NCBI GenBank assembly: GCA_031267485.1
Contig: JAIRYY010000150.1
Coordinates: 1-20,173 of the forward strand
Origin: Tannerella sp.
Lineage (GTDB): Bacteria; Bacteroidota; Bacteroidia; Bacteroidales; Tannerellaceae
Length of the DNA: 20,173 nucleotides
Direction of reading: 5' to 3'
The position numbers and the translations under genes are program-made. The notes beneath the pieces are model-generated. The model searched no databases. It was not told where the DNA came from and worked only from the letters and a program-made list of their open reading frames with translations. Shown here piece by piece: positions 3,615 to 19,690 of this stretch (the first letter of the stretch is position 1; every line of letters starts with the position of its first letter).

Positions 3615-5261
3615 ATGGATTTAACAGAAAAAAACGAATCGAAAGCCACATCGGGAAATGAGATTTCAGACAGGGAAGGTTCTTCTTCGGAAGACCACGG
3701 ACAGGACAGAGCCGCAAGTGCAAGTGCAAATGCCGGTGCAAGTGCAGGCGCTATCGAGGGTGAAAAACCAAAGGGAAAGCGTCTACGTATCAAAGACACG
3801 CGCAAAGTGGACTACAACAGTTCCATGCCGACAGGCCGCCCTTATCAGCCGGTATACGGACAGACAAGACAGTCGTCGCCTTTTCAGCAGCGTCCCTATT
3901 CGCCGCAGGATGGAGAGAGACGTCCGCGTTCGGGAGACAGTGATTCCGACAACAGGTATCATTCCGGAGACGGCGGCTATCAGAGAAGAAACTATAACGC
4001 GCCCGGAGAACAGGGCGGATATCAGCCGCGCCATTATAGCCAGGACGACCAGCCGCAGGACAGCGAACAGGGCGGATACCAGCAGCGGAACTACACGCCG
4101 GGCGGGTATCAGCAAAGACGCAGCTACAACACTAACAGCCAGAGTGGCGGCGGATACCAGCCGCGGAGAAGCTACGACCAGGGCGGCGGTAACAGGCAGG
4201 GCGGATATCAGCAGCGGGGATACAACCAGGGCGGCGGCTACAATCAAGGTGGCGGCTACAACCAGGGCGGTGGATATAACCAGGGTGGCGGCTACAACCA
4301 AAGAGGCGGCTACAACCAGGGAGGCGGATATAATCAGGGCGGCGGCTACAACCAGGGTGGCGGCTACAATCGCGGCGGTTACAATCAGGGCGGCGATAAC
4401 CGCGGCGGATACAACCAGGGCGGCGGATATCAGCAAAGAAGACCCGGAGGGGGAGGCAATATGCGCAGGCCGCAGCAGTGGGATTACGCCAGGCAAACTT
4501 TCCCGAAGCCCGTCAAATATCAGGAGGTCGTAACGGACCCTGCGGCGCCGATACGCTTAAACAAGTATCTTGCCAACGCAGGCGTATGTTCGCGCCGCGA
4601 AGCCGACGAATTTATCCAGGCTGGCGCCGTCACGGTAAATGGCGAGGCCATAACGGAACTCGGGACAAAAATAACACGCATGGATAAGGTCTCTTTCCGC
4701 GACCAGCCCGTGCAGATAGAAAGCAAGATTTACATCCTGCTGAACAAGCCGAAAAATTGTGTGACAACTTCCGACGACCCGCAGAACAGGCAAACCGTCA
4801 TGGACCTGGTTAAGAACGCATGCATAGAGCGCATCTATCCGGTAGGCCGTCTGGACCGTAACACAACCGGCGTGCTGCTGCTTACGAACGACGGCGAGAT
4901 GGCTGCCAAGCTGACGCATCCGTCATTTAAGAAGAAAAAGATTTATCACGTATGGCTTGACCGCGAAGTGGCTGTTGACGACATGGAGAAATTAGTCAAC
5001 GGCATCGAACTGGAAGACGGCGAAATACATGCGGATGCCATAAGTTATGCAAACGACGACGACAAAAGCCAGGTCGGCATCGAAATTCACTCCGGCAAAA
5101 ACCGGATTGTAAGGCGCATGTTCGAAACGCTCGGTTATCACGTGACGAAACTCGACCGCGTATATTTTGCCGGACTGACGAAGAGAAATCTCGGGCGCGG
5201 AAAATGGCGCTATCTCTCCGAGCATGAAGTAAACTCGCTTCGCATGGGAGCTTACGAATGA
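3615..5261 (+). CDS. RluB/RsuA-family 23S rRNA pseudouridine synthase with long Gly/Tyr/Asn/Gln-rich N-terminal extension
   Basis: 548 aa. The C-terminal half is the enzyme: an S4 RNA-binding domain (about 311-360, IRLNKYLANAGVCSRREADE) and an RsuA/RluB/E/F-type catalytic domain with the signature GRLDRNTTG (411-419, catalytic Asp414), then KKKKIYHVWL and KNRIVRRMFE. It should isomerise a uridine in 23S rRNA; the exact site cannot be read from sequence. Residues 1-50 are acidic and Ser/Ala-rich. Residues about 70-295 are low-complexity, with Arg-Gly and (G)GGYNQ repeats that should be disordered and RNA-binding or phase-separating. Such extensions are usual, as I recall, for Bacteroidota homologues but vary in length. 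The core alone matches the normal enzyme length of about 240 aa. Other-frame ORFs across the repeats are shadows. It lies between purB and asnS. Confidence 0.92.
   Translation: MDLTEKNESKATSGNEISDREGSSSEDHGQDRAASASANAGASAGAIEGEKPKGKRLRIKDTRKVDYNSSMPTGRPYQPVYGQTRQSSPFQQRPYSPQDGERRPRSGDSDSDNRYHSGDGGYQRRNYNAPGEQGGYQPRHYSQDDQPQDSEQGGYQQRNYTPGGYQQRRSYNTNSQSGGGYQPRRSYDQGGGNRQGGYQQRGYNQGGGYNQGGGYNQGGGYNQGGGYNQRGGYNQGGGYNQGGGYNQGGGYNRGGYNQGGDNRGGYNQGGGYQQRRPGGGGNMRRPQQWDYARQTFPKPVKYQEVVTDPAAPIRLNKYLANAGVCSRREADEFIQAGAVTVNGEAITELGTKITRMDKVSFRDQPVQIESKIYILLNKPKNCVTTSDDPQNRQTVMDLVKNACIERIYPVGRLDRNTTGVLLLTNDGEMAAKLTHPSFKKKKIYHVWLDREVAVDDMEKLVNGIELEDGEIHADAISYANDDDKSQVGIEIHSGKNRIVRRMFETLGYHVTKLDRVYFAGLTKRNLGRGKWRYLSEHEVNSLRMGAYE
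4197..4425 (+). repeat. In-frame tandem repeat encoding GGGYNQ units
   Basis: About ten near-identical 18-bp units (type GGCGGCTACAACCAGGGC) within the pseudouridine synthase gene, with occasional 15-bp or Arg-bearing variants. All indels keep the frame. Synonymous changes between units show it is not a very recent expansion. Copy number may vary between strains. Confidence 0.9.
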
Positions 5262-8768: not shown

Positions 8769-9212
8769 TCAGAAAAACGCCTCCAGCGCTTCAATCTGCG
8801 AAGAAAGCGCCGATTCGTTACTTTCGGCAAGATGTTCAAGGGATTTGAGCGCCTCCGACCGGACAAGGTCGATGTTCGTATATTTTTCTCCACTGATGTA
8901 CATATACGAAACCTCCGGCGATGCCGCTTCGTGCGTGCGGAAAGCAAACGGCAATGCGAGGCACAGGAGCAGGACGGCAGCCGCCGCGCTCCACGCCAGC
9001 GCAGTCCGCCGGAGTGGCCGAAGATGCGTGCGGCGGCGCGTTTCCCGCCGTTCGGCTGCCAGATAGCGGAAGATAGGCTGATACGCCTTCAACGTTTCCG
9101 GCAGGTTGTCTTTCCGGAAATAATCGCGGAGAAACTCTTCCTCCTCCAGGCCGGTCAATCCGTCGAAATACGCTTCAACCAGCGATTCCATGTCTGTTTT
9201 TCCTTTTCTCAT
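8769..9212 (-). CDS. Anti-sigma factor-like single-pass membrane protein
   Basis: 147 aa. The N-terminal cytoplasmic part (1-68) is acidic and helical (LVEAYFDGLTGLEEEEFLRDYF) and ends in a highly basic patch (RRETRRRTHLRPLRR). One membrane helix follows at about 70-91, then a short periplasmic tail of about 55 residues with an Ala/Leu/Glu-rich helix. No zinc-binding HxxxCxxC motif of the ZAS type is present. The start codon overlaps the sigma-factor stop (ATGA, 9209-9212), which implies translational coupling and 1:1 production with its partner. The role is inferred: to hold the adjacent ECF sigma factor at the inner membrane until a signal releases it. Confidence 0.75.
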   Translation of the reverse strand: MRKGKTDMESLVEAYFDGLTGLEEEEFLRDYFRKDNLPETLKAYQPIFRYLAAERRETRRRTHLRPLRRTALAWSAAAAVLLLCLALPFAFRTHEAASPEVSYMYISGEKYTNIDLVRSEALKSLEHLAESNESALSSQIEALEAFF

Positions 9213-9712
9213 AATCTATAATTCATTATTTTCATATATTGATTCCGTACATTTTTCCGCGCACGGGAAAGATTCACCGTGACGGCGCTCACCTGCGTGC
9301 CGGTTATCGCGGCAATCTCCTGCAGTTCATACCCTTCGATGTCGCGCATCCTGATGATGGTCTGCTGCAAAACCGGCAGACGTTCAATGATTCGCCGGAC
9401 AAGCGCGACGGCATCCCTGCGTTCGATTTCCGTATAGGGCGTTTCATGATCCGTTTCCCCGGTCAGATCGTCGACATCCGCAATTCTCCTCTGCGCCCGC
9501 AGACGGTCGATGCAGATGTTCCTGACGGTCTGCACGGCGAACGCTCCCGGATTGGCCACCGCATCCAGCTGCCCGCGGATATTCCACAGGCGAAGCAAGG
9601 TCTCCTGCGTCGCATCTTCGGCATCCTCTTCCTGTTGCATCAATTTCAGAGCTACCGCGAAAAGCGTCTTCCGGAGAGGTATGATATCTGTCTTGAATCG
9701 TTCCAGTCGCAT
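9209..9712 (-). CDS. RNA polymerase ECF-type sigma-70 factor
   Basis: 167 aa from the ATG at 9712. The frame extends to a TTG at 9754, but the extra 14 residues (rich in Phe, Cys and Val) overlap an operator-like dyad and look non-coding. Region 2 covers about 10-75 with EDAEDATQETLLRLW (29-43), the usual sigma-2 core-binding and -10 recognition helix. Region 4 covers about 109-155 with LPVLQQTIIRMRDIEGYELQEIA and the helix-turn-helix GTQVSAVTVNLSRARK. There is no region 1 or 3, as expected for ECF members. It heads a four-gene minus-strand operon with the anti-sigma factor, a secreted protein and a barrel, a layout known in Bacteroidales for envelope-responsive regulation. Confidence 0.9.
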   Translation of the reverse strand: MRLERFKTDIIPLRKTLFAVALKLMQQEEDAEDATQETLLRLWNIRGQLDAVANPGAFAVQTVRNICIDRLRAQRRIADVDDLTGETDHETPYTEIERRDAVALVRRIIERLPVLQQTIIRMRDIEGYELQEIAAITGTQVSAVTVNLSRARKNVRNQYMKIMNYRL

Positions 9713-9723
9713 ATTTACCCTGA

Positions 9724-9753
9724 TGACGTTGCAAAGGAAAAAATATAACGTCA
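9724..9753 (-). promoter_or_regulatory. Operator-like inverted repeat upstream of the sigma gene
   Basis: TGACGTT and AACGTCA form a perfect 7-bp dyad separated by 16 bp (centre-to-centre 23 bp, about two helical turns), 12 to 41 bp before the sigma-factor ATG. No TAnnTTTG promoter is visible here, so transcription may rely on the ECF factor itself with this dyad as a regulator site. It supports choosing the ATG at 9712. Confidence 0.45.
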
Positions 9754-9778
9754 AAAGGAAGATTTTTTTTTAAGAAGG

Positions 9779-12523: not shown

Positions 12524-12589
12524 CACCGCATTCATGAACATATTTGCACAATTAAAAAATAACAGTACTTTTACGCAAATTTTGATATT

Positions 12590-14026
12590 ATGTTAAAGGA
12601 GCAGACATTAGTTAATGAACGGTACTTGTTGCAGAGGATTTTGGGCAGAGGCGGATTCTCGGAGGTTTGGCTGGCGGATGACATCATGACATCCACCAAG
12701 GTCGCCCTGAAATTTTATGCTCCGAGCGGGGGGCTGGATGACGAGGGGATTAAAGTGTTCATTCATGAATTTGCCCTGCTGTTCAACCTGAACCACAGCA
12801 ATCTCCTGAAACCGTCTCATTACGACCATTATGAAAAGATGCCATATCTCGTGCTGGCCTACTGCGAGAACGGCTCGGCGCAGAAACTCATCGACCGGAT
12901 AGATGAAAGAAATGCATGGCGTTTCCTCCGGGATGTATCGGAAGGTTTGCATTATCTTCATTCGAGCAATCCTCCGATCTTACACCAGGACATCAAACCG
13001 GACAATATCCTGATCGACCGGAACGGCCGGTTTGTGATAACGGATTTCGGCATCAGCATCCAGATCCGCAGGACGTTGCGCAAGGCAACTACCGTGGCTA
13101 CCACGGGGGGAACGCTGGCGTACATGGCGCCCGAACGGTTCGGAAGCAATCCGGATCCGGTTAAGGCCAGCGACGTTTATTCCTTAGGCGCCACGATGTT
13201 CGAACTGCTGACGGGGAATGTTCCTTTCGGGGAGTATGGCGGGTTACTGCAGAAAAACGGCGCCGAAATCCCCGTGATTAAACAGAAATATTCCAATAAA
13301 CTGAAACAGCTCGTTTACCGGTGCCTGGCATTGAATACCTGGGACCGTCCGACTGCCCGGGAGATAAGCGTCTGTGCCAGGAAGATGCTGGAGACGAACG
13401 TGGAACAAGGACAGGTCACGATACGCGACAACGGCGGCAGCAGCCATGACGGCGGCAGCGGGCATGGCGATGGCGGTTATGATAGCAGCGGCGGCGGTTA
13501 TAACGGAGGCAGCGGTGGCGGCGGTTATGACGGCGACGGTCATGATGACGGCATTGGCGCCGATGCGGACGGAACCGGAAGGAGCGCCGGCAAAATCGTC
13601 ATCGCACTGGTTGGCGGACTGATATTCGCCGCTTTCGTGATTGCCGCATTTTTTGCCGCTGACAGGATATCCGACAGCCGTGAAAAAAAGAAAGCGGTGA
13701 ACCTCTACAATCAATATATCCTTCAGGGGGACACGCTCAAGGGTATCGGACAGGAGGCGGTGGAGAATTTCCTGATGTACGTGGACGCCCTGGAGAATTA
13801 TCAGCTGGCGCTGAAGAGCGCGGAAAACCTGGATGATTCGCTGTTGAAGAATAACGCCCGTGAAAAAATCGACAACACGAAGTCCCTGATTTTAAAAACG
13901 CGCGATGAATTTTTAAATACAGCGGAGAAAATGAAGAATCTTGACATTCTTCCGGCGGCTGAGGCCTTTACCGAAAGGGCAAACTCTTTGAGCGAGCGGT
14001 ATGAGCATGTAGTAATAAACCAATAA
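12590..14026 (+). CDS. Transmembrane Ser/Thr protein kinase (PknB-like) with glycine-rich juxtamembrane linker
   Basis: 478 aa. Residues about 11-270 are a Hanks-type kinase: Gly-loop LGRGGFSEV (18-26), ATP-anchoring Lys41 (VALKFY), catalytic loop HQDIKPDN (132-139, Asp134), DFG (152-154) and APE (180-182). The catalytic loop has Gln instead of Arg before Asp134, so it is a non-RD kinase, in which activation-loop phosphorylation may matter less. An activation segment rich in Thr (KATTVATTGGT) follows the DFG. Residues about 282-328 form a Gly/Asp/His/Ser linker. One membrane helix follows at about 335-356, and the last about 120 residues are an extracytoplasmic alpha-helical domain with no PASTA repeats. 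It starts the signalling operon. The next gene, 14 bp on, encodes a periplasmic/outer-membrane protein that could be sensed by this domain (inference). Confidence 0.93.
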   Translation: MLKEQTLVNERYLLQRILGRGGFSEVWLADDIMTSTKVALKFYAPSGGLDDEGIKVFIHEFALLFNLNHSNLLKPSHYDHYEKMPYLVLAYCENGSAQKLIDRIDERNAWRFLRDVSEGLHYLHSSNPPILHQDIKPDNILIDRNGRFVITDFGISIQIRRTLRKATTVATTGGTLAYMAPERFGSNPDPVKASDVYSLGATMFELLTGNVPFGEYGGLLQKNGAEIPVIKQKYSNKLKQLVYRCLALNTWDRPTAREISVCARKMLETNVEQGQVTIRDNGGSSHDGGSGHGDGGYDSSGGGYNGGSGGGGYDGDGHDDGIGADADGTGRSAGKIVIALVGGLIFAAFVIAAFFAADRISDSREKKKAVNLYNQYILQGDTLKGIGQEAVENFLMYVDALENYQLALKSAENLDDSLLKNNAREKIDNTKSLILKTRDEFLNTAEKMKNLDILPAAEAFTERANSLSERYEHVVINQ

Positions 14027-14040
14027 TAACCCCATAAATC

Positions 14041-15918
14041 ATGAAAAAGAAATACTTTTTGCTGTTATTCGCCCTGTCGGCGCTTTTCCTGCCCGGCGGT
14101 AATATCCGGGCACAGGATCCCATCTGTATGAATATTTATAACGAGGGCCTTGCTTTGATGAACAAAAAGAACAGGAACAGCTATCAGGAAGCGGTCAAAA
14201 AGTTCGAAGCGGCCGGGATATGCGACGCAAAACTGCTGGATGACTGTAAAAAAAGGATCAGCGAATGCAAAAAAGCTATTGATTCGCCTCCCGCAGCCAC
14301 CCCCGCAACTACTCCCGCGTCGACGCCTGCGCCCACGTCCAAACCTACGTCCAAACCCGCGTCCAAACCCGCGCCGGCGTCTGTCCGGCTTTCCAGGGAG
14401 AACCTGCGGTTTTCCGAGCAGGGAGGTATTGAGAATATCACCGTGTCGGGCGACGACGGGTGGACTGTGTCGGAAACGGCGGACTGGTGCGATGCGAAGA
14501 GAGGCGGCAACCTGGTCGTCATCACCTGCAATCCGAACAAATCAAGTCTCTCCAGAAATACAACCGTGGAAATAAAAGGCGGCAACAGCAGCCGGACGGT
14601 TTCCATCGAACAGGAAGCCGCCGCGGAATATCTGACCGTATCGAAAAAGACGCTCGAATATGCGTCGCCGGGAGGCACGGACAGTGTCCGGATATCAACA
14701 AACGGTGAAAACTGGACGATTGGGGATTTTCCGGCCTGGTGTAACGTGCGGAAAGCCGGAACGGACGGATTGATCATCGTATGCCTGGAAAATCAGACGA
14801 ACCAGGCAAGGAATGAAATTATACAGCTCAAAACGGGCAGGCAGACGATCGGTGTGGAAATAAAACAGGACGCCCGCAAGCCGTTACAGGCTAACGCCGT
14901 ACCGGAGACGGCGCCCGAAGCATCCGAACGCAAACGCGACGCCGCATCCGGTCGCGACGCCACATCCGAACGCCGCGGCACAGCCGGTCGCCGCGTCGTA
15001 TCCGGCCGCGAATCTGCTCCGGCGCGCGATGACGTATCCGGCCGCGAATCTCCGGCGGCAGGCCGTAAAATCTCTTTCGGCATCATGGCGAATGTCCTGA
15101 TTCCGGATTTCAGCGTCAAATCGTCATCCGTTTTGGGCAGCGCCGTCAATTACGGTTACGGCGGGAAATCGGAAACCCCCTCCTATTCCCTTGCGGAACC
15201 GGGATTTAGCGGAGGCGTGGTTGCCGACATCCGAATATCGGAAAACATCTATCTCCAGACCGGACTGTATTATACGAACATAAGCATGAACAATAAAATA
15301 AAGGGAGAACGCAATGACATCATCAGAGATTATACGTCATCGACTTACCTTGAGGGGACGGTCTTCTATAACATCACGGAGAAATATACATTAAATTATA
15401 TCGAACTGCCGGTTCTGCTTTCCTACCGGCATCGCCTGTCCGAAAAACTGATCTGGCAGGTAAGCGCGGGGCCGTATGTCGGATACGGCATCACGGGCAA
15501 GGCCAAAATCCAGGGAACGCTGGACTGGCCCGCGCTGCTGGAATACTACAATAGTGATGACCGGCCAACAGGCGGTATTTACTCGAGAAGCAACGCCCTC
15601 GCGGGAGAACTGGATTTGTTCGGCAAAACCGGCTCACTGTCCCGGACGGGAGACCAACCGGGCGGCAACAGGTCTGATTTCAAAAACGCGCCTTTCCGAA
15701 ACCTGAACGCCGGCGTATCCATCGGTACGGCGATTGAGTATGCAGGCTTCAACGTGGGGGTTTACTATGATATGGGCCTGATGAATATCGCAAACGGGGA
15801 TTATTGGAACTCCGAACGCATGCCCGCAGGCGACAATGCGGACAATGTGGCAATTGACAATTATGTACACCGGCTTAACAAAATTCAGATAAGGGTCGGA
15901 TATATATATCGCTGGTAA
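14041..15918 (+). CDS. Secreted protein with TPR-like, two BACON-like and C-terminal outer-membrane barrel domains
   Basis: 625 aa. Signal peptide at 1-24 (NIRAQ). Residues about 28-80 are a short TPR-like helical segment with four Cys (29, 61, 69, 76). A Pro/Ala/Thr/Lys linker covers 83-114. Two BACON-like Ig domains follow (about 115-195 and 196-280), each with the WTV/WTI...WC...R...I(E/K)Q pattern (VSETADWC, IGDFPAWC, SIEQEAAA, EIKQDARK). A charged Arg/Ser/Glu repeat linker covers about 281-342. The last 283 residues are a PorT-like outer-membrane barrel (ISFGIMANVLIPDF to RVGYIYRW, ending in Trp). Periplasmic domains would thus hang from an outer-membrane barrel. BACON domains are usually linked to glycan or mucin binding, so ligand or cell-wall contact is inferred. 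It lies 14 bp after the kinase and is probably co-translated with it. Confidence 0.82.
   Translation: MKKKYFLLLFALSALFLPGGNIRAQDPICMNIYNEGLALMNKKNRNSYQEAVKKFEAAGICDAKLLDDCKKRISECKKAIDSPPAATPATTPASTPAPTSKPTSKPASKPAPASVRLSRENLRFSEQGGIENITVSGDDGWTVSETADWCDAKRGGNLVVITCNPNKSSLSRNTTVEIKGGNSSRTVSIEQEAAAEYLTVSKKTLEYASPGGTDSVRISTNGENWTIGDFPAWCNVRKAGTDGLIIVCLENQTNQARNEIIQLKTGRQTIGVEIKQDARKPLQANAVPETAPEASERKRDAASGRDATSERRGTAGRRVVSGRESAPARDDVSGRESPAAGRKISFGIMANVLIPDFSVKSSSVLGSAVNYGYGGKSETPSYSLAEPGFSGGVVADIRISENIYLQTGLYYTNISMNNKIKGERNDIIRDYTSSTYLEGTVFYNITEKYTLNYIELPVLLSYRHRLSEKLIWQVSAGPYVGYGITGKAKIQGTLDWPALLEYYNSDDRPTGGIYSRSNALAGELDLFGKTGSLSRTGDQPGGNRSDFKNAPFRNLNAGVSIGTAIEYAGFNVGVYYDMGLMNIANGDYWNSERMPAGDNADNVAIDNYVHRLNKIQIRVGYIYRW
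14941..15048 (+). repeat. 18-bp in-frame repeats in the pre-barrel linker
   Basis: Six degenerate 18-bp units (GCATCCGGTCGCGAC type) encode ASGRDA/TSERRG/VSGRES-like hexapeptides. The unit GTATCCGGCCGCGAATCT occurs twice exactly. They make a flexible, strongly charged linker between the BACON-like domains and the barrel. Confidence 0.75.
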
Positions 15919-15940
15919 TTTAATTATAAAATATAATATT

Positions 15941-16555
15941 ATGAGATGCAGAAATTGTGGATGGGACAATCCCGAAAACAGCACAAGGTGCGTGAAGTGC
16001 AACCAGCCGTTGCATGAAGAACGAAACTCTTTTACTTCTCCCGGACTTGCGGTTGATACTGATTTCAACTCCAGGAAAACAGTGAGCGAAAGTCTGGTCT
16101 TTTCAGACAGGGACGGAGGCAATTCCCCGGCGGACAGGCCGGACCGGAACCCGACTTCGCGTATATGCTATAATTGCAAAAGCGCTGTCGCTTCGGATTA
16201 TTATTTTTGCCCGGAATGTGGCGCCGCCTTATCCGATAAGGAAGACGCGCCGGGAGCAGCAACGCCGGATGTGGCCGCGCCGAAAGTCACCATGCCGGGC
16301 GGCGCAGCGACGCCAAAGGTCACCATGCCGGGCAGCGCGATACCGAATGTAACAATACCGGGCGGCGCGGCAACGCCAAAAGCCACCATGCCTGGCAGCG
16401 CGATACCGAATGTAACGATACCGGGCGGCGCGGCAACGCCAAAAGCCACCATACCGGGCAGCGCGATACCGAATGTAACGATGCCGGGCGGCGCAGCGGC
16501 ACCGAAAGCCACCATGCCGGGCAGCGCGATACCGAATGTAACGATTCCGGGCTGA
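15941..16555 (+). CDS. Double zinc-ribbon protein with Thr/Pro 21-residue repeats (N-terminal part of a gene split by in-frame TGA)
   Basis: 204 aa to TGA at 16553-16555. Two zinc ribbons: C3-x2-C6-x10-C17-x2-C20 and C76-x2-C79-x10-C90-x2-C93, with the CxNCG/CPECG knuckles of bacterial zinc-ribbon adaptor domains. From 120 on come near-identical 21-residue units of type GGAATPKATMPGSAIPNVTIP. The reading frame continues after the TGA with the same repeat and then an FHA-like domain (to 17017), so one ancestral protein of about 358 aa is likely: zinc ribbons, Thr/Pro repeats, FHA. The TGA stands where a Gly codon is expected in the fifth repeat. It may be a real nonsense mutation, a tolerated split with reinitiation at 16577, or an assembly error in a repeat. 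It lies 22 bp after the barrel gene, in the kinase operon. Confidence 0.8.
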   Translation: MRCRNCGWDNPENSTRCVKCNQPLHEERNSFTSPGLAVDTDFNSRKTVSESLVFSDRDGGNSPADRPDRNPTSRICYNCKSAVASDYYFCPECGAALSDKEDAPGAATPDVAAPKVTMPGGAATPKVTMPGSAIPNVTIPGGAATPKATMPGSAIPNVTIPGGAATPKATIPGSAIPNVTMPGGAAAPKATMPGSAIPNVTIPG

Positions 16556-16612
16556 GCGGCAACGCCAAAAGCCACCATGCCTGGCAGCACGATACCGAAT
16601 GTAACAATGCCG
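16298..16612 (+). repeat. 63-bp in-frame tandem repeat (five units)
   Basis: Five 63-bp units encode GGAATPKATMPGSAIPNVTIP-like blocks with only a few base differences each, so array length is prone to change by slippage or recombination. The in-frame TGA falls at the start of unit five (16553-16555). Shorter degenerate half-units flank both sides. Confidence 0.92.
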
Positions 16613-17017
16613 GGCGGTGCAACGCCGAAAGTCACGATGCCGGGCAGCGCGGCAACGCCCGGCGCAGCGATACCCGACGCGCCGGCGCCGGAAGACGGCA
16701 GCGGTCGCCCGACGGTACGTCCCGGAAAACGTTCGTACTGTTCGCTCACGTTAGTCCCGGACGAAAAAGAACCCATTTCCGTAGCCCCCCTGTCTTTTTC
16801 CGGCGGGGAGATTATCCTGAACAGGGCGAACACGGAACCGGACAATATCACGATAACCTCCAAAGCGCAGGCTGTGTTGACGTGCGAAAACAAACGCTGG
16901 TTTATTCAGGACCGGAGCGAGCTGAAAACGACCTGTCTGTACGTGTCGGAAAAGACCGAACTGAAGCCCGGCGATATCATTGTTCTGGGAGACCGGCGAT
17001 TTTTGTTTGACTATTAA
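16577..17017 (+). CDS. FHA-like domain protein (C-terminal part of the split zinc-ribbon gene)
   Basis: 146 aa from the first ATG after the TGA, 21 bp downstream and in the same frame. Residues 1-50 continue the Thr/Pro repeats. Residues about 52-146 resemble an FHA domain: SGGEIILNRAN (75-85), ITSKAQAVLTCENKRWFIQDRS, and LKPGDIIVLGDRRFLFDY. The pThr-binding residues are only partly kept: Arg83 and Ser95 are present, but the usual His after the Ser and the Asn-Gly pair are not obvious, so phosphopeptide binding is doubtful. Whether this half is made alone by reinitiation is unknown; no start signal is evident at 16577. With the upstream half it would be a cytoplasmic adaptor for the neighbouring kinase and phosphatase. 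Confidence 0.65.
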   Translation: MPGSTIPNVTMPGGATPKVTMPGSAATPGAAIPDAPAPEDGSGRPTVRPGKRSYCSLTLVPDEKEPISVAPLSFSGGEIILNRANTEPDNITITSKAQAVLTCENKRWFIQDRSELKTTCLYVSEKTELKPGDIIVLGDRRFLFDY

Positions 17018-17061
17018 GACCTGTCACGATGAGCTGTGCAACTTCTAAGAAATCGGCTCTC

Positions 17062-17100
17062 CCGAAAACGGCGAATATAATTACGGGATTCCCGTTTCGG
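17062..17100 (+). promoter_or_regulatory. Hairpin in the leader of the PP2C gene
   Basis: CCGAAAACGG and CCGTTTCGG form an imperfect stem (one extra base), enclosing a smaller ACGGG/CCCGT hairpin. It lies in the 126-bp gap before the phosphatase, the largest gap inside the operon. No U-tract follows and no TAnnTTTG box is visible, so an attenuator or mRNA processing or stability element is more likely than a terminator. Confidence 0.35.
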
Positions 17101-17143
17101 CAATAAGATAAGGTAATGTATGAATTAAAAAAGGAAAATACAG

Positions 17144-18157
17144 ATGACGAATAAGGTTCATTTTCAGTTGACGGCAGGAACGGATGTGGGATTGCAGCGT
17201 TCCAACAATGAGGATAATTTCGTGGTAAACGCCAATCTTGCCGGACAGGAATGGTTCATACCGAAAGACAGGGTCAGCCACATCACGCTGAGGGAGAAAG
17301 GATGTCTGCTGGTCGTTGCCGACGGCATGGGCGGCATGAATGCCGGCGAAGTGGCGTCCGGTATAGCCATTGACAGCATTCAAAAATCATTCCTGCCGGA
17401 GAATATAACGGACGATGTCATCCGCCGAACCGCGTCAATAAAGGATTTCATGACGGCGGCCATCGTTTCCGCCGATAACGCGATACGAGAACATGCGCGG
17501 GAGAATCCGGATACTTTGGGGATGGGCACCACGATTATCATGGCCTGGATTCTTGATAAAAACGTATATGTTTCCTGGTGCGGAGACAGCCGGGCGTATT
17601 CCTTTCATCCCGAATCGGGACTGATCCGGCTGTCGAAAGACCATTCGTATGTCCAGGAACTGGTTGACAGTGGCCGGCTGGACGATGAGGCGGCCTTTAG
17701 CCATCCGAACAGCAACATCATCACACGAAGCCTGGGCGATCCGGGAGAAACAGCCGTACCTGATTTTGTCGGACACGGGCTTTGCGACGGCGAAGTGATT
17801 TTATTGTGCACCGACGGCCTGTCGGGCATGCTGAGGGACCGGGCGATTGAAGGAATAATGACCGGGACAGCCGGGGATGTGGATGTGTGTAAAAACACGC
17901 TGATAGAATCGGCTTTAAGGGAAGGCGGGCAGGACAATGTGACGGTCGCCCTGTGCAAAATCATCCCGGAGGCGAATGTCGCGGATGAAGCCGGCAGAGG
18001 AGCGGTCGCCGACACTGCGGACGGCGAGGCCGGCAAGCCGAAACGCCCGAGAAAAAGCCCGGTCGTAAAGCTCATTCTCATTGTCGCAATATTACTGTTT
18101 TGCCTGATTGCACTGGGCCTGTACTGTATGCGGTACATTTATAATCCCGAACCGTAA
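17144..18157 (+). CDS. PP2C-family Ser/Thr protein phosphatase with C-terminal membrane anchor
   Basis: 337 aa. Residues about 5-273 are a complete PP2C (PPM) domain: RSNNEDNF (19-26, Glu23/Asp24), VADGMGGMNAGE (58-69, Asp60), GMGTTIIMAW, WCGDSRAY (145-152, Asp148), ITRSLGDP (193-200), CTDGLSGML (222-230, Asp224) and GGQDNVTV (261-268, Asp264). The metal-coordinating acidic residues are all present, so it should be active and Mn/Mg dependent. A Lys/Arg/Pro-rich linker leads to one membrane helix (about 307-328) and a short tail, which holds the catalytic domain on the inner membrane facing the cytoplasm, next to the kinase domain. Its expected role is to remove phosphate from the kinase and its targets. 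It follows the zinc-ribbon/FHA gene and precedes the second FHA gene. Confidence 0.95.
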   Translation: MTNKVHFQLTAGTDVGLQRSNNEDNFVVNANLAGQEWFIPKDRVSHITLREKGCLLVVADGMGGMNAGEVASGIAIDSIQKSFLPENITDDVIRRTASIKDFMTAAIVSADNAIREHARENPDTLGMGTTIIMAWILDKNVYVSWCGDSRAYSFHPESGLIRLSKDHSYVQELVDSGRLDDEAAFSHPNSNIITRSLGDPGETAVPDFVGHGLCDGEVILLCTDGLSGMLRDRAIEGIMTGTAGDVDVCKNTLIESALREGGQDNVTVALCKIIPEANVADEAGRGAVADTADGEAGKPKRPRKSPVVKLILIVAILLFCLIALGLYCMRYIYNPEP

Positions 18158-18208
18158 AACAACAACAACATAATTCAACATATTAATAACTTAATAAATA
18201 AAAAAAGT

Positions 18209-18913
18209 ATGGAACGTAAAATCACAGCAGGAAGAGATCCGTCGAATGACATTCACGTAAGTGAATCTTATGATGGAGTAAGCAGGACTCATGCGAACAT
18301 TTATTACAGCAACGGGCGGATATCGTTTGAAGATATCAGCACCAACGGGTCTTATGTAAACAATAATTTTATTCATCGTTCAAAGATAGAAATATTCCCG
18401 AATGATGTGGTAATGCTGGGCAAACAGTATGTTCTGCCGTGGAGCACAATCAACAATGCCCTTTCCCTGCCGTCGCAGCGGCCGACCGAACCGAAGGGAC
18501 AGGCGTTTGGCGCGCCATACCCCGGCTCGCAAACGCCGCCTCCCGCCTCCGGTTTCTCCGACAGTTATACGTCCGGCAGAAGTCTCGACCGTGAACTTAA
18601 TGCCTGGAACTGGGGCGCTTTCTTCTTCGGATGGCTCTGGGGAATATTTAACGGCGTATACTGGCCGCTGGTCGCTTTGATACCTTATGTGGGCTGGGCT
18701 GCCGCGTTAATTATCAACATTGTTCTCGGCATCAAGGGTAATGCCTGGGCCTGGAAAGGACGGTACTGGAAAGACTTCAGTCATTTCCGGAGAGTGCAGA
18801 AATCATGGGCAATGTGGGCGTTATACGTGTTCATCGCATCCGTTGTTCTCTGTATAACATCCCTGACCCTGTTCTTTTCGGTCATAAAAGCGCTCATAGA
18901 GAATTACGGTTAA
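18209..18913 (+). CDS. FHA-domain membrane protein (DUF2628-like C-terminus)
   Basis: 234 aa. Residues 1-77 are a compact canonical FHA domain with every pThr-site residue in place: GRDPSNDI (8-15), SRTHA (25-29) and STNGSYVN (44-51). It starts directly at the first FHA strand. A Pro/Ser/Gly linker covers about 85-125. The C-terminal part (about 130-230) is hydrophobic with NAWNWGAFFFGWLWGIFNGVYW, as in small DUF2628-type membrane proteins, then two further membrane segments (about 155-175 and 203-227). It should recruit phosphothreonine proteins to the inner membrane, making it the likely reader for the operon's kinase. It is the last gene of the operon, 51 A/T-rich bp after PP2C, and is followed by a strong terminator. 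Confidence 0.9.
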   Translation: MERKITAGRDPSNDIHVSESYDGVSRTHANIYYSNGRISFEDISTNGSYVNNNFIHRSKIEIFPNDVVMLGKQYVLPWSTINNALSLPSQRPTEPKGQAFGAPYPGSQTPPPASGFSDSYTSGRSLDRELNAWNWGAFFFGWLWGIFNGVYWPLVALIPYVGWAAALIINIVLGIKGNAWAWKGRYWKDFSHFRRVQKSWAMWALYVFIASVVLCITSLTLFFSVIKALIENYG

Positions 18914-18962
18914 CAGCTCCTCTCCGCCGGCGATGCACCGTCAGGCAGAGAGCTGTCTCGAA

Positions 18963-19018
18963 AGCCTCATACCGTCGTCGCCAGCGGGCAGGAATGACGA
19001 TGGTATGAGGCTTTTTTT
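18963..19018 (+). terminator. Rho-independent terminator of the kinase operon
   Basis: A stem of about 16 bp (AGCCTCATACCGTCGTC against GACGATGGTATGAGGCT, one G-U/mismatch) is closed by a 16-nt loop and followed by seven T (19012-19018). It lies 50 bp after the last FHA gene. Confidence 0.93.
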
Positions 19019-19040: not shown

Positions 19041-19246
19041 TTTCACATCAATAGAAAACCTTTCAGTGATTAATGATTAATGATTAGTGATTAATTGTTT
19101 CACCTCAATAGAAAATATGGAATCAGCCTTTCAGTGATTAATGATTAATGATTAGTGATTAATTGTTTCACATCAATAGAAAATATTTTCAGTGATTAAT
19201 GATTAATGATTAGTGATTAATTGTTTCACCTCAATAGAAAATATGG
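19041..19246. repeat. 58-bp A/T-rich tandem repeats, right (inverted copy)
   Basis: Three-plus units of TTTCACATCAATAGAAAAT followed by CAGTGATTAATGATTAATG heptad runs, the reverse complement of the 7274-7455 array. Two units end in a TATGGAATC variant also found next to the left-hand array (7261-7270), so the two arrays share unit types. Confidence 0.9.
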
Positions 19247-19390
19247 AATCCCACCCCCCGGCGAATACCTCCCCGAAGGGGGTTTCACCATACAAAAACG
19301 GTGAATCTCCTGCGGAGAATAAGGCGATTGACAGGAATGCCCTCCGGTCAATACGCTTCCGCTACATCGCGGCATACGCTTCCCGGCTTT

Positions 19391-19690
19391 CCGCGTATAC
19401 GCGGACAGGCCTGCTGCGTATATGCAGGTAGTACCTTCGGTGTATACGCTGATAGTACCTTCGGTGTATACGCTGATAGTACCTTCAGCGTATACGCTGA
19501 TAGTACCTTCGGTGTATACGCGGGTAGGCCTGCAGTGTATACACTTATAGTACCTTCGGTGTATACACTTATAGTACTATAAGTGTATACGCTGGTAGGC
19601 CTGCAGCGTATACACTGAAAAGCCAGCCGCGTATACGCGCATAAGCTGAGAGCGTATACACGTATAAGCTGAGGGCGGACACGCGGGCGG
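19391..19690. repeat. Right dyad array: about 12 units of 23/24 bp with GTATAC core
   Basis: Core starts at 19391, 19414, 19438, 19462, 19486, 19510, 19533, 19557, 19581, 19604 and 19627 (spacing 23 or 24 throughout), with degenerate units before and after. The centre GTATAC or GTATAT is kept while the arms vary: CCGC/GCGG, CTGC/GCAG, CAGC/GCTG, CAGT/ACTT, CGGT/GCTG. The spacer is mainly ATAGTACCTTC or TAGGCCTG. It is homologous to the left array when that is reverse-complemented. Confidence 0.9.

Follow-up and report, generated by a model that had tools for sequence, protein, structure and literature searches.

The window analysed here, that is, the whole stretch of 20,173 nt from Tannerella sp. 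(assembly GCA_031267485.1, contig JAIRYY010000150.1; genome G000), carries between positions 12590 and 18913 five plus-strand genes—designated KIN, BAR, ZnFHA, PP2C, and FHATM—which fill that interval and form a candidate operon for phospho-signalling across the cell envelope. Open reading frames (ORFs) were called mechanically throughout, and the readings of residue motifs in the kinase, FHA, PP2C, and protease sequences rest on MAFFT alignments. Below, L-numbers denote loci read on contigs and G-numbers genomes; KIN2 stands for a kinase-FHA protein, and FHA-protease for an FHA-transmembrane (TM)-trypsin-like protein. The features of the locus, in order, are:

12543–12573, plus strand: promoter-like site of the Bacteroidota type, ending 16 bases before the KIN start codon, with one mismatch to TTTG-N19-TAnnTTTG
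12590–14026, plus strand: KIN, transmembrane non-RD Ser/Thr kinase of 478 aa (Pfam Pkinase, 9.8e-46)
14041–15918, plus strand: BAR, 625 aa (BACON, 1.4e-9; OMP_b-brl_2, 3.3e-15; both over the Pfam cut-off)
15941–17017, plus strand: ZnFHA, with a double zinc ribbon (Pfam DZR, over the cut-off), a Pro/Gly-rich repeat linker, and a degenerate FHA domain
16280–16651, plus strand: repeat array of the ZnFHA linker, made of 6 tandem copies of a 63-bp unit (Tandem Repeats Finder score 527)
17055–17104, plus strand: scar of a lost FHA-protease gene, matching the 3' end of the L018 and L001 copies at 77–80% over 41–47 nt (E 1.2e-6)
17144–18157, plus strand: PP2C, membrane-anchored PPM-type phosphatase of 337 aa (PP2C_2, 1e-10)
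18209–18913, plus strand: FHATM, 234 aa, with a canonical FHA domain and a membrane domain at its C-terminus (FHA, 1.2e-13)
18960–19015, plus strand: terminator-like hairpin with a T run at its end (−36.8 kcal/mol, z −7.1)

That the five genes share one strand, as a preliminary description of this DNA had proposed, was confirmed, except that the third gene does not constitute one open frame: in this assembly an in-frame stop at 16553–16555 divides ZnFHA into two ORFs, 15941–16555 and 16577–17017. The hairpin after FHATM is a strong terminator, as had been suspected; none of 200 shuffles was as good, and its absence from the simple terminator scan results from a loop exceeding the length allowed by that scan. 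The promoter upstream of KIN, which had been described as clear, proved only suggestive, since sites resembling TTTG-N19-TAnnTTTG, which we take to be the Bacteroidota promoter consensus, numbered 3 in the window versus 1.45 expected, and sigma-70-like sites were at the level of chance (12 versus 10.9). Neither an Rfam match nor a tRNA was found in the window.

KIN contains the motifs VALK, HQDIKPDN, and DFG, and was called a non-RD kinase because the HQDIKPDN is present together with the other two. The kinase domain is followed by a disordered Gly/Asp-rich linker (residues 272–337), one TM segment (336–354), and a C-terminal extracytoplasmic domain that the structure model (mean predicted local distance difference test, pLDDT, of 76) predicts to be helical; the transmembrane non-RD nature of the kinase, as anticipated earlier, is thus borne out, and the predicted helical character of its outer domain agrees with the earlier description. 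A VIA-align search with the model returned kinases in all the best 50 rows, aligned over residues 1–277. A TM segment beyond the catalytic domain was present in 28 of 29 KIN rows, the one missing being L049, a fragment of 125 aa, while L040 has a second, N-terminal TM call.

BAR starts with a stretch that by eye resembles a signal peptide, and continues with TPR-like helices (27–81), two BACON-like domains (121–276), a disordered linker (283–340), and an outer-membrane beta-barrel (344–623); the structure model (mean pLDDT 74, predicted TM-score 0.43) predicts a helical N-terminus. The barrel protein with TPR-like and BACON-like domains is as had been described. The same architecture recurs, at 29% identity, in L044, a locus of another family. 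Foldseek with the BAR model gave Ig-like and barrel chains, with query TM scores of 0.11–0.21 among the best 50 rows, which scores are so low that we assign no specific function to BAR.

The membrane-anchored phosphatase likewise agrees with its earlier description: PP2C keeps DGMGG, GDS, CTDG, and GGQDN, which we read as metal-site motifs, and has one TM segment (310–328) near its C-terminal end, with a short outer tail. A TM segment beyond the catalytic domain occurs in 25 of 26 PP2C rows, the exception being L035. In FHATM, for its part, the FHA motifs GR, SRTH, and TNG are intact, and hydropathy indicates two TM segments. ZnFHA departs from this pattern, as its FHA domain falls just under the Pfam cut-off (18.5 versus 20.7 bits), has SK.QA instead of SR.HA, and lacks TNG, the last two motifs being those that we assume usually bind phosphothreonine in FHA domains. 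This degeneracy is not general, since the copies in L032, L045, L050, and L051 retain more FHA-like residues. Hence, of the two FHA readers that had been postulated, one stands as canonical and the other is without the phosphothreonine-binding residues; the FHATM domain looks to be the only one of the two in the operon that is competent for phosphothreonine binding. As regards the ZnFHA stop, it sits inside the 63-bp repeat array, and the copies in the relatives L001 and L003 are uninterrupted; the stop may be either recent or an assembly error in the array.

Ratios of nonsynonymous to synonymous substitution rates (dN/dS), obtained for each gene with two to three of the relatives L003, L001, L018, L040, and L041, are only rough because dS was near saturation (0.99–2.24): 0.16–0.24 for KIN, 0.18–0.24 for BAR, 0.11–0.18 for PP2C, 0.15–0.20 for FHATM, and 0.15–0.24 for the zinc-ribbon part of ZnFHA. 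The lowest values of the operon, 0.04–0.07, belonged to the FHA end of ZnFHA, though this part lies behind the stop. These ratios indicate purifying selection on the parts tested; and because the ZnFHA FHA stretch has lost the canonical residues and yet is the most conserved, that domain probably has a docking role other than the usual phosphothreonine binding.

The operon of the window appears as a variant of a larger gene cluster, whose parts are a TM kinase, KIN2, ZnFHA, PP2C, the FHA-protease, often a secreted protein, and sometimes a MotA/MotB-like pair, the usual order in relatives within the family being ZnFHA, KIN2 (with its C-terminal FHA), FHA-protease, PP2C, KIN, and a BACON/barrel/WG gene. 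As the set of loci compared for synteny was partly picked by a match to KIN, the unbiased count is that of the 10 outside loci (L026 and L043–L051), i.e., every non-family genome matched by the FHA-protease profile in our order and phylum samples. In those loci KIN2, ZnFHA, and PP2C were each present in 10/10, KIN in 8/10 (one of them a contig-edge fragment), a secreted protein in 7/10, and a MotA/TolQ/ExbB protein with a one-TM partner in 4/10, with the core genes always on one strand. Within the family, the FHA-protease occurred at 25 places (from 30 profile rows, split matches having been merged by eye), several of them cut by contig ends, and was accompanied by PP2C in 18, by KIN2 in 19, and by ZnFHA, counted from 50 bits, in 19; at L062 and L063 it occurred without PP2C, KIN2, ZnFHA, or KIN. 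In the protein database, 8000 candidates were scored with the FHA-protease profile and 2097 of them matched; the sources named for the 120 matches listed include Parabacteroides and Prevotellaceae. The window shares with this cluster KIN, ZnFHA, and PP2C, in close proximity and with the same orientation, and L044 has KIN-BAR-ZnFHA in the order of the window, after which come KIN2, FHA-protease, secreted protein, and PP2C; genes for KIN2 and FHA-protease were found neither in the window nor elsewhere in G000, whose completeness is 77%. The gene set is therefore conserved in other genomes, contrary to the refuting condition of the preliminary description, yet the five genes are not the full unit, the fuller clusters containing KIN2 and FHA-protease in addition.

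Several observations on these clusters may be recorded apart. Two FHA-protease-like genes and two KIN genes lie within the cluster of L047 (G218), and two KIN genes in that of L033 (G397). After KIN, a three-gene set is found in three loci (L033:5402–8879, L038:11038–14389, and L039:10343–12954), that of L033 without a Pfam match. A secreted-looking family adjoins the FHA-protease at L034:3945–4886, L038:7136–7936, L044:8115–9026, L047:9153–10169, and others; the copies scanned had no Pfam match, and that of L034 no NCBIfam match. Within the kinase cluster of L043, L048, L050, and L051, the MotA/TolQ/ExbB protein adjoins a one-TM protein whose TM segment carries an Asp and which has a C-terminal DVDLHV-type domain; the pair is a possible ion-driven component. 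A search for the MotB-like protein in the 395 phylum genomes gave full-length matches only in G636 and G677 (in the latter in two pieces), both of which are carriers of the FHA-protease cluster, while 16 other genomes matched at 1e-12 to 1e-17, mostly over the C-terminal part, in open frames of ~750–1230 aa; in G000 the MotB-like profile of the relatives had no match.

The FHA-protease itself has a TM segment after the FHA domain in 23 of 23 rows. Its Trypsin assignment is under the Pfam cut-off in both copies scanned, and is based further on conserved His, Asp, and GNSGGPV stretches, which we read as trypsin-like catalytic motifs, and on precomputed Trypsin domains in relatives. All three catalytic residues, His, Asp, and Ser, are retained in 10/10 outside loci, in one of which, L043, the SR.H motif of the FHA domain is altered, and in 3 of the 12 family copies counted (L034, L038, and L042; L039, a fragment of 187 aa, and the family copies read later are outside this count). 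Among the remaining family copies the His is lost in L028, L030, L031, L001, and L018, both His and Ser in L037, and the Ser in L032, L033, and L036. A relative in Parabacteroides hominis (Tannerellaceae) has also lost the catalytic His, and the copy P0073 from a Prevotellaceae metagenome-assembled genome (MAG) keeps all three residues.

Among the loci of the window type, the FHA-protease gene is kept between ZnFHA and PP2C in L001 and L018, and is gone in the window and in L003, the contigs of G386 not spanning that gap. The scar in the window is still readable as EYNYGIPV, the same as in the L018 protein; the gap of L003 aligns with L001 at 73% over 111 nt (E 4e-16), about one third of that length being the end of the gene and the rest the gap before PP2C. 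Since the PP2C tree pairs the window with L018, in which the gene is present, and L003 with L001 and L019, the simplest reading is that the FHA-protease was lost twice. Taken together, the relatives form a series from active-looking protease through pseudoprotease to deletion.

Window-type operons, which we located with FHATM and KIN profiles—the latter also picks up other kinases—and by reading contigs, have five carriers: G000; G381 (L003); G400 (L001); G376 (L041 and L018, on two contigs); and G386 (L040 and L019, on two contigs). All belong to the genus of the window, L001–L003 being titled Tannerella sp. MAGs, of a kind obtained from termite guts. The five genes were seen to be contiguous only in the window and in L003; L001 has the same set plus one extra gene, on a contig starting inside the kinase, and in the two further genomes the set is divided by contig ends. 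These loci form a single branch in both the PP2C and the KIN trees (support 99/99 each). G381 holds, in addition, the separate fuller locus L058, where ZnFHA and KIN2 occur with FHA-protease, secreted protein, and PP2C. In G000, at its completeness of 77%, two kinase genes were found, on different contigs, and three FHA matches over the cut-off. A distant second module, which holds the second kinase, lies on its contig C18 (L004, 1093–9000), with a LytTR gene first, then an FHA-membrane protein, a zinc-ribbon FHA protein, PP2C, and kinase, after which comes a gene without a Pfam match.

We propose that the operon belongs, in reduced form, to a Bacteroidota cluster for trans-envelope phospho-signalling that is apparently undescribed and whose original output would have been a periplasmic protease that degenerated and was lost in this lineage; we consider the chances of this reading to be about equally balanced. 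The anatomy of the system stems from sequence and prediction, whereas its signal, contacts, substrates, and output are what we infer from them. In that scheme BAR would sit in the outer membrane, extend its BACON and TPR-like modules into the periplasm, and report a ligand or the state of the envelope to the periplasmic helical domain of KIN, which kinase would phosphorylate itself and the cytoplasmic zinc-ribbon/FHA scaffold; FHATM would dock on the phosphothreonine, and PP2C would reset the phosphorylation state. In the fuller clusters, phospho-docking might switch the FHA-protease, whose periplasmic domain would act on envelope or secreted targets. The lineage of the window may have had a protease that first lost a catalytic residue and then was deleted, the remaining output therefore running, in this scheme, through FHATM and ZnFHA. 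More tentatively, and with somewhat less confidence than the reading just given, the clusters could represent a distinct Bacteroidota machine for trans-envelope signalling. The element controlled would be a periplasmic serine protease anchored in the membrane, under two Ser/Thr kinases, a membrane PP2C, and FHA scaffolds; some lineages would couple the machine to a MotA/MotB-like proton-channel pair, and lineages would swap the outer-membrane sensor, make a pseudoprotease, and finally shed the protease as in the window. Little is known about Ser/Thr phospho-signalling across the Gram-negative envelope, and least of all in Bacteroidota; a conserved cluster that unites a kinase, a phosphatase, and FHA readers with outer-membrane modules and a protease-like membrane protein offers a concrete and testable signalling route.

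A number of observations weigh against the reading of the operon as a reduced signalling cluster. The gene adjoining the kinase differs among the relatives (BACON, WG, TPR, or a gene of unknown type), and BAR therefore need not be the sensor partner; a homology between the KIN ectodomain and the TPR-like start of BAR, for which BLASTP gave E 0.024 over 26 residues, was unconvincing. Because 9 of the 12 family copies and the P. hominis copy are without a residue of the triad, proteolysis is not the output everywhere. That the window represents a reduced state is carried by the scar and by L044, the trees having no outgroup. Finally, the distribution is sparse: the FHA-protease profile matched 16/123 family, 8/295 order, and 2/395 phylum genomes (samples that partly overlap, the order draw having held few family members), and the window-type operon is rare, with 5/123 family genomes; the system may therefore, given also the interrupted ZnFHA, be decaying.

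That the operon might be a remnant in decay, retaining little function in the strain of the window, is an alternative that we regard as unlikely. It is favored by the ZnFHA stop, the loss of the protease gene with its scar, the lack of a KIN2 gene, and the sparseness within the genus; still, dN/dS is low in the parts tested, even after the stop, the catalytic motifs are intact, another genome has the same gene set in L003, and the stop may be recent or an artifact of assembly, as discussed above. We judge it more improbable that the operon regulates a secretion or surface machine encoded elsewhere—similar to the type VI (T6SS), type VII, or type IX secretion system. Kinase/PP2C/FHA trios regulate the T6SS in other bacteria, e.g., through the PpkA-PppA-Fha threonine-phosphorylation pathway. 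One published study (PMC12607579) reportedly concerns a T6SS with PpkA-Fha; and the best NCBIfam match of FHATM was the T6SS FHA protein TagH, far under the cut-off (36 versus 120 bits). A T6SS-regulator role was nevertheless rejected, as the sheath marker PF05943 was found in 0/23 cluster genomes, in a search whose control was positive only in E. coli, which included several incomplete genomes, and whose model may be weak for the Bacteroidota T6SS. This outcome speaks against the constant co-occurrence with secretion loci that, according to the preliminary description, would make the operon a known type; that the operon itself contains no secretion gene was likewise upheld, and no family flanking the clusters is shared by more than 6 of 26 loci; as most of these families are without a domain identification, a link to secretion through the flanks may exist.

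The lowest probability we assign to a KKP-type anti-phage or stress toxin-antitoxin module, in which two kinases would be harmful unless held in check by PP2C. KKP consists of a PP2C gene followed by two kinase genes, the kinase PfkB having a C-terminal FHA; a cold-shock domain is suggested as a defining feature, and such clusters occur in Bacteroidetes (PMC11341870). The fuller clusters indeed have two kinases, one with a C-terminal FHA like PfkB, plus PP2C, and the kinases match PADLOC kinase models; these matches were read as generic, however, because they cover mainly the kinase domain. No cold-shock domain appeared in the three kinases scanned with Pfam (that of the window and the two of L028), each flanking gene family is found in 6/26 loci at most, and KKP, as described in the portion of PMC11341870 available, includes no membrane, barrel, BACON, or protease-like parts. 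The window has a single kinase, and the two kinase genes of G000 lie on different contigs, so that KKP membership was rejected. A known defence module also found no support, there being no PADLOC match for BAR, PP2C, FHATM, and the FHA piece of ZnFHA in the window, nor for the ZnFHA and FHA-protease of L001.

Elsewhere in the window, several tandem repeat arrays with units of 7, 58/68, and 23/24 bp lie past the terminator (19059–19677). In the ORF at 3615–5261, the N-terminal half carries a long GGYNQ-type repeat, after which comes what we take to be an RNA pseudouridine synthase-like domain. A gene for an extracytoplasmic-function (ECF) sigma factor (9209–9754) overlaps by a few bases a short gene on the same strand with a membrane-like stretch (8769–9212), which is perhaps its anti-sigma.

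With respect to known systems, no paper describing such a cluster was found among the titles and beginnings of abstracts searched, and to that extent the earlier statement that no named system has this set holds. The single-pass KIN with its C-terminal ectodomain resembles the kinases of the PASTA kinase/Stp pairs (PknB/Stk1-Stp1), and PP2C comes near the NCBIfam Stp1 cut-off (215.7 versus 230 bits); nevertheless, KIN matches the PASTA-kinase model under the cut-off (144 versus 450 bits), and membership was rejected, since the KIN of the window has no PASTA match and its ectodomain is predicted to be helical. The window differs from those pairs, moreover, in its membrane-anchored PP2C and its FHA and barrel partners. 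The TerY-P triad similarly unites a kinase and a PP2C with accessory genes, but no von Willebrand factor A domain was present in the proteins of the window or in those of the relatives scanned with Pfam. The MotA/ExbB-family plus one-TM pair of the relatives (4 loci) bears a distant likeness to the ZorAB of Zorya, that pair being tied to kinase genes; a Zorya motor was dismissed, as no ZorA/ZorB pair occurs in the window operon, and the relatives had only a weak ZorA and no ZorB among the PADLOC matches listed. With the T6SS pathway PpkA-PppA-Fha, the window has in common the module of membrane kinase, PP2C, and FHA protein, to which it adds the outer-membrane barrel/BACON partner and the zinc-ribbon FHA, and the fuller copies the FHA-protease. 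By gene content, the nearest known system to the fuller cluster is KKP (PMC11341870), from which the cluster is set apart by its TM kinase, its TM PP2C, and its extra FHA, zinc-ribbon, protease-like, and envelope proteins.

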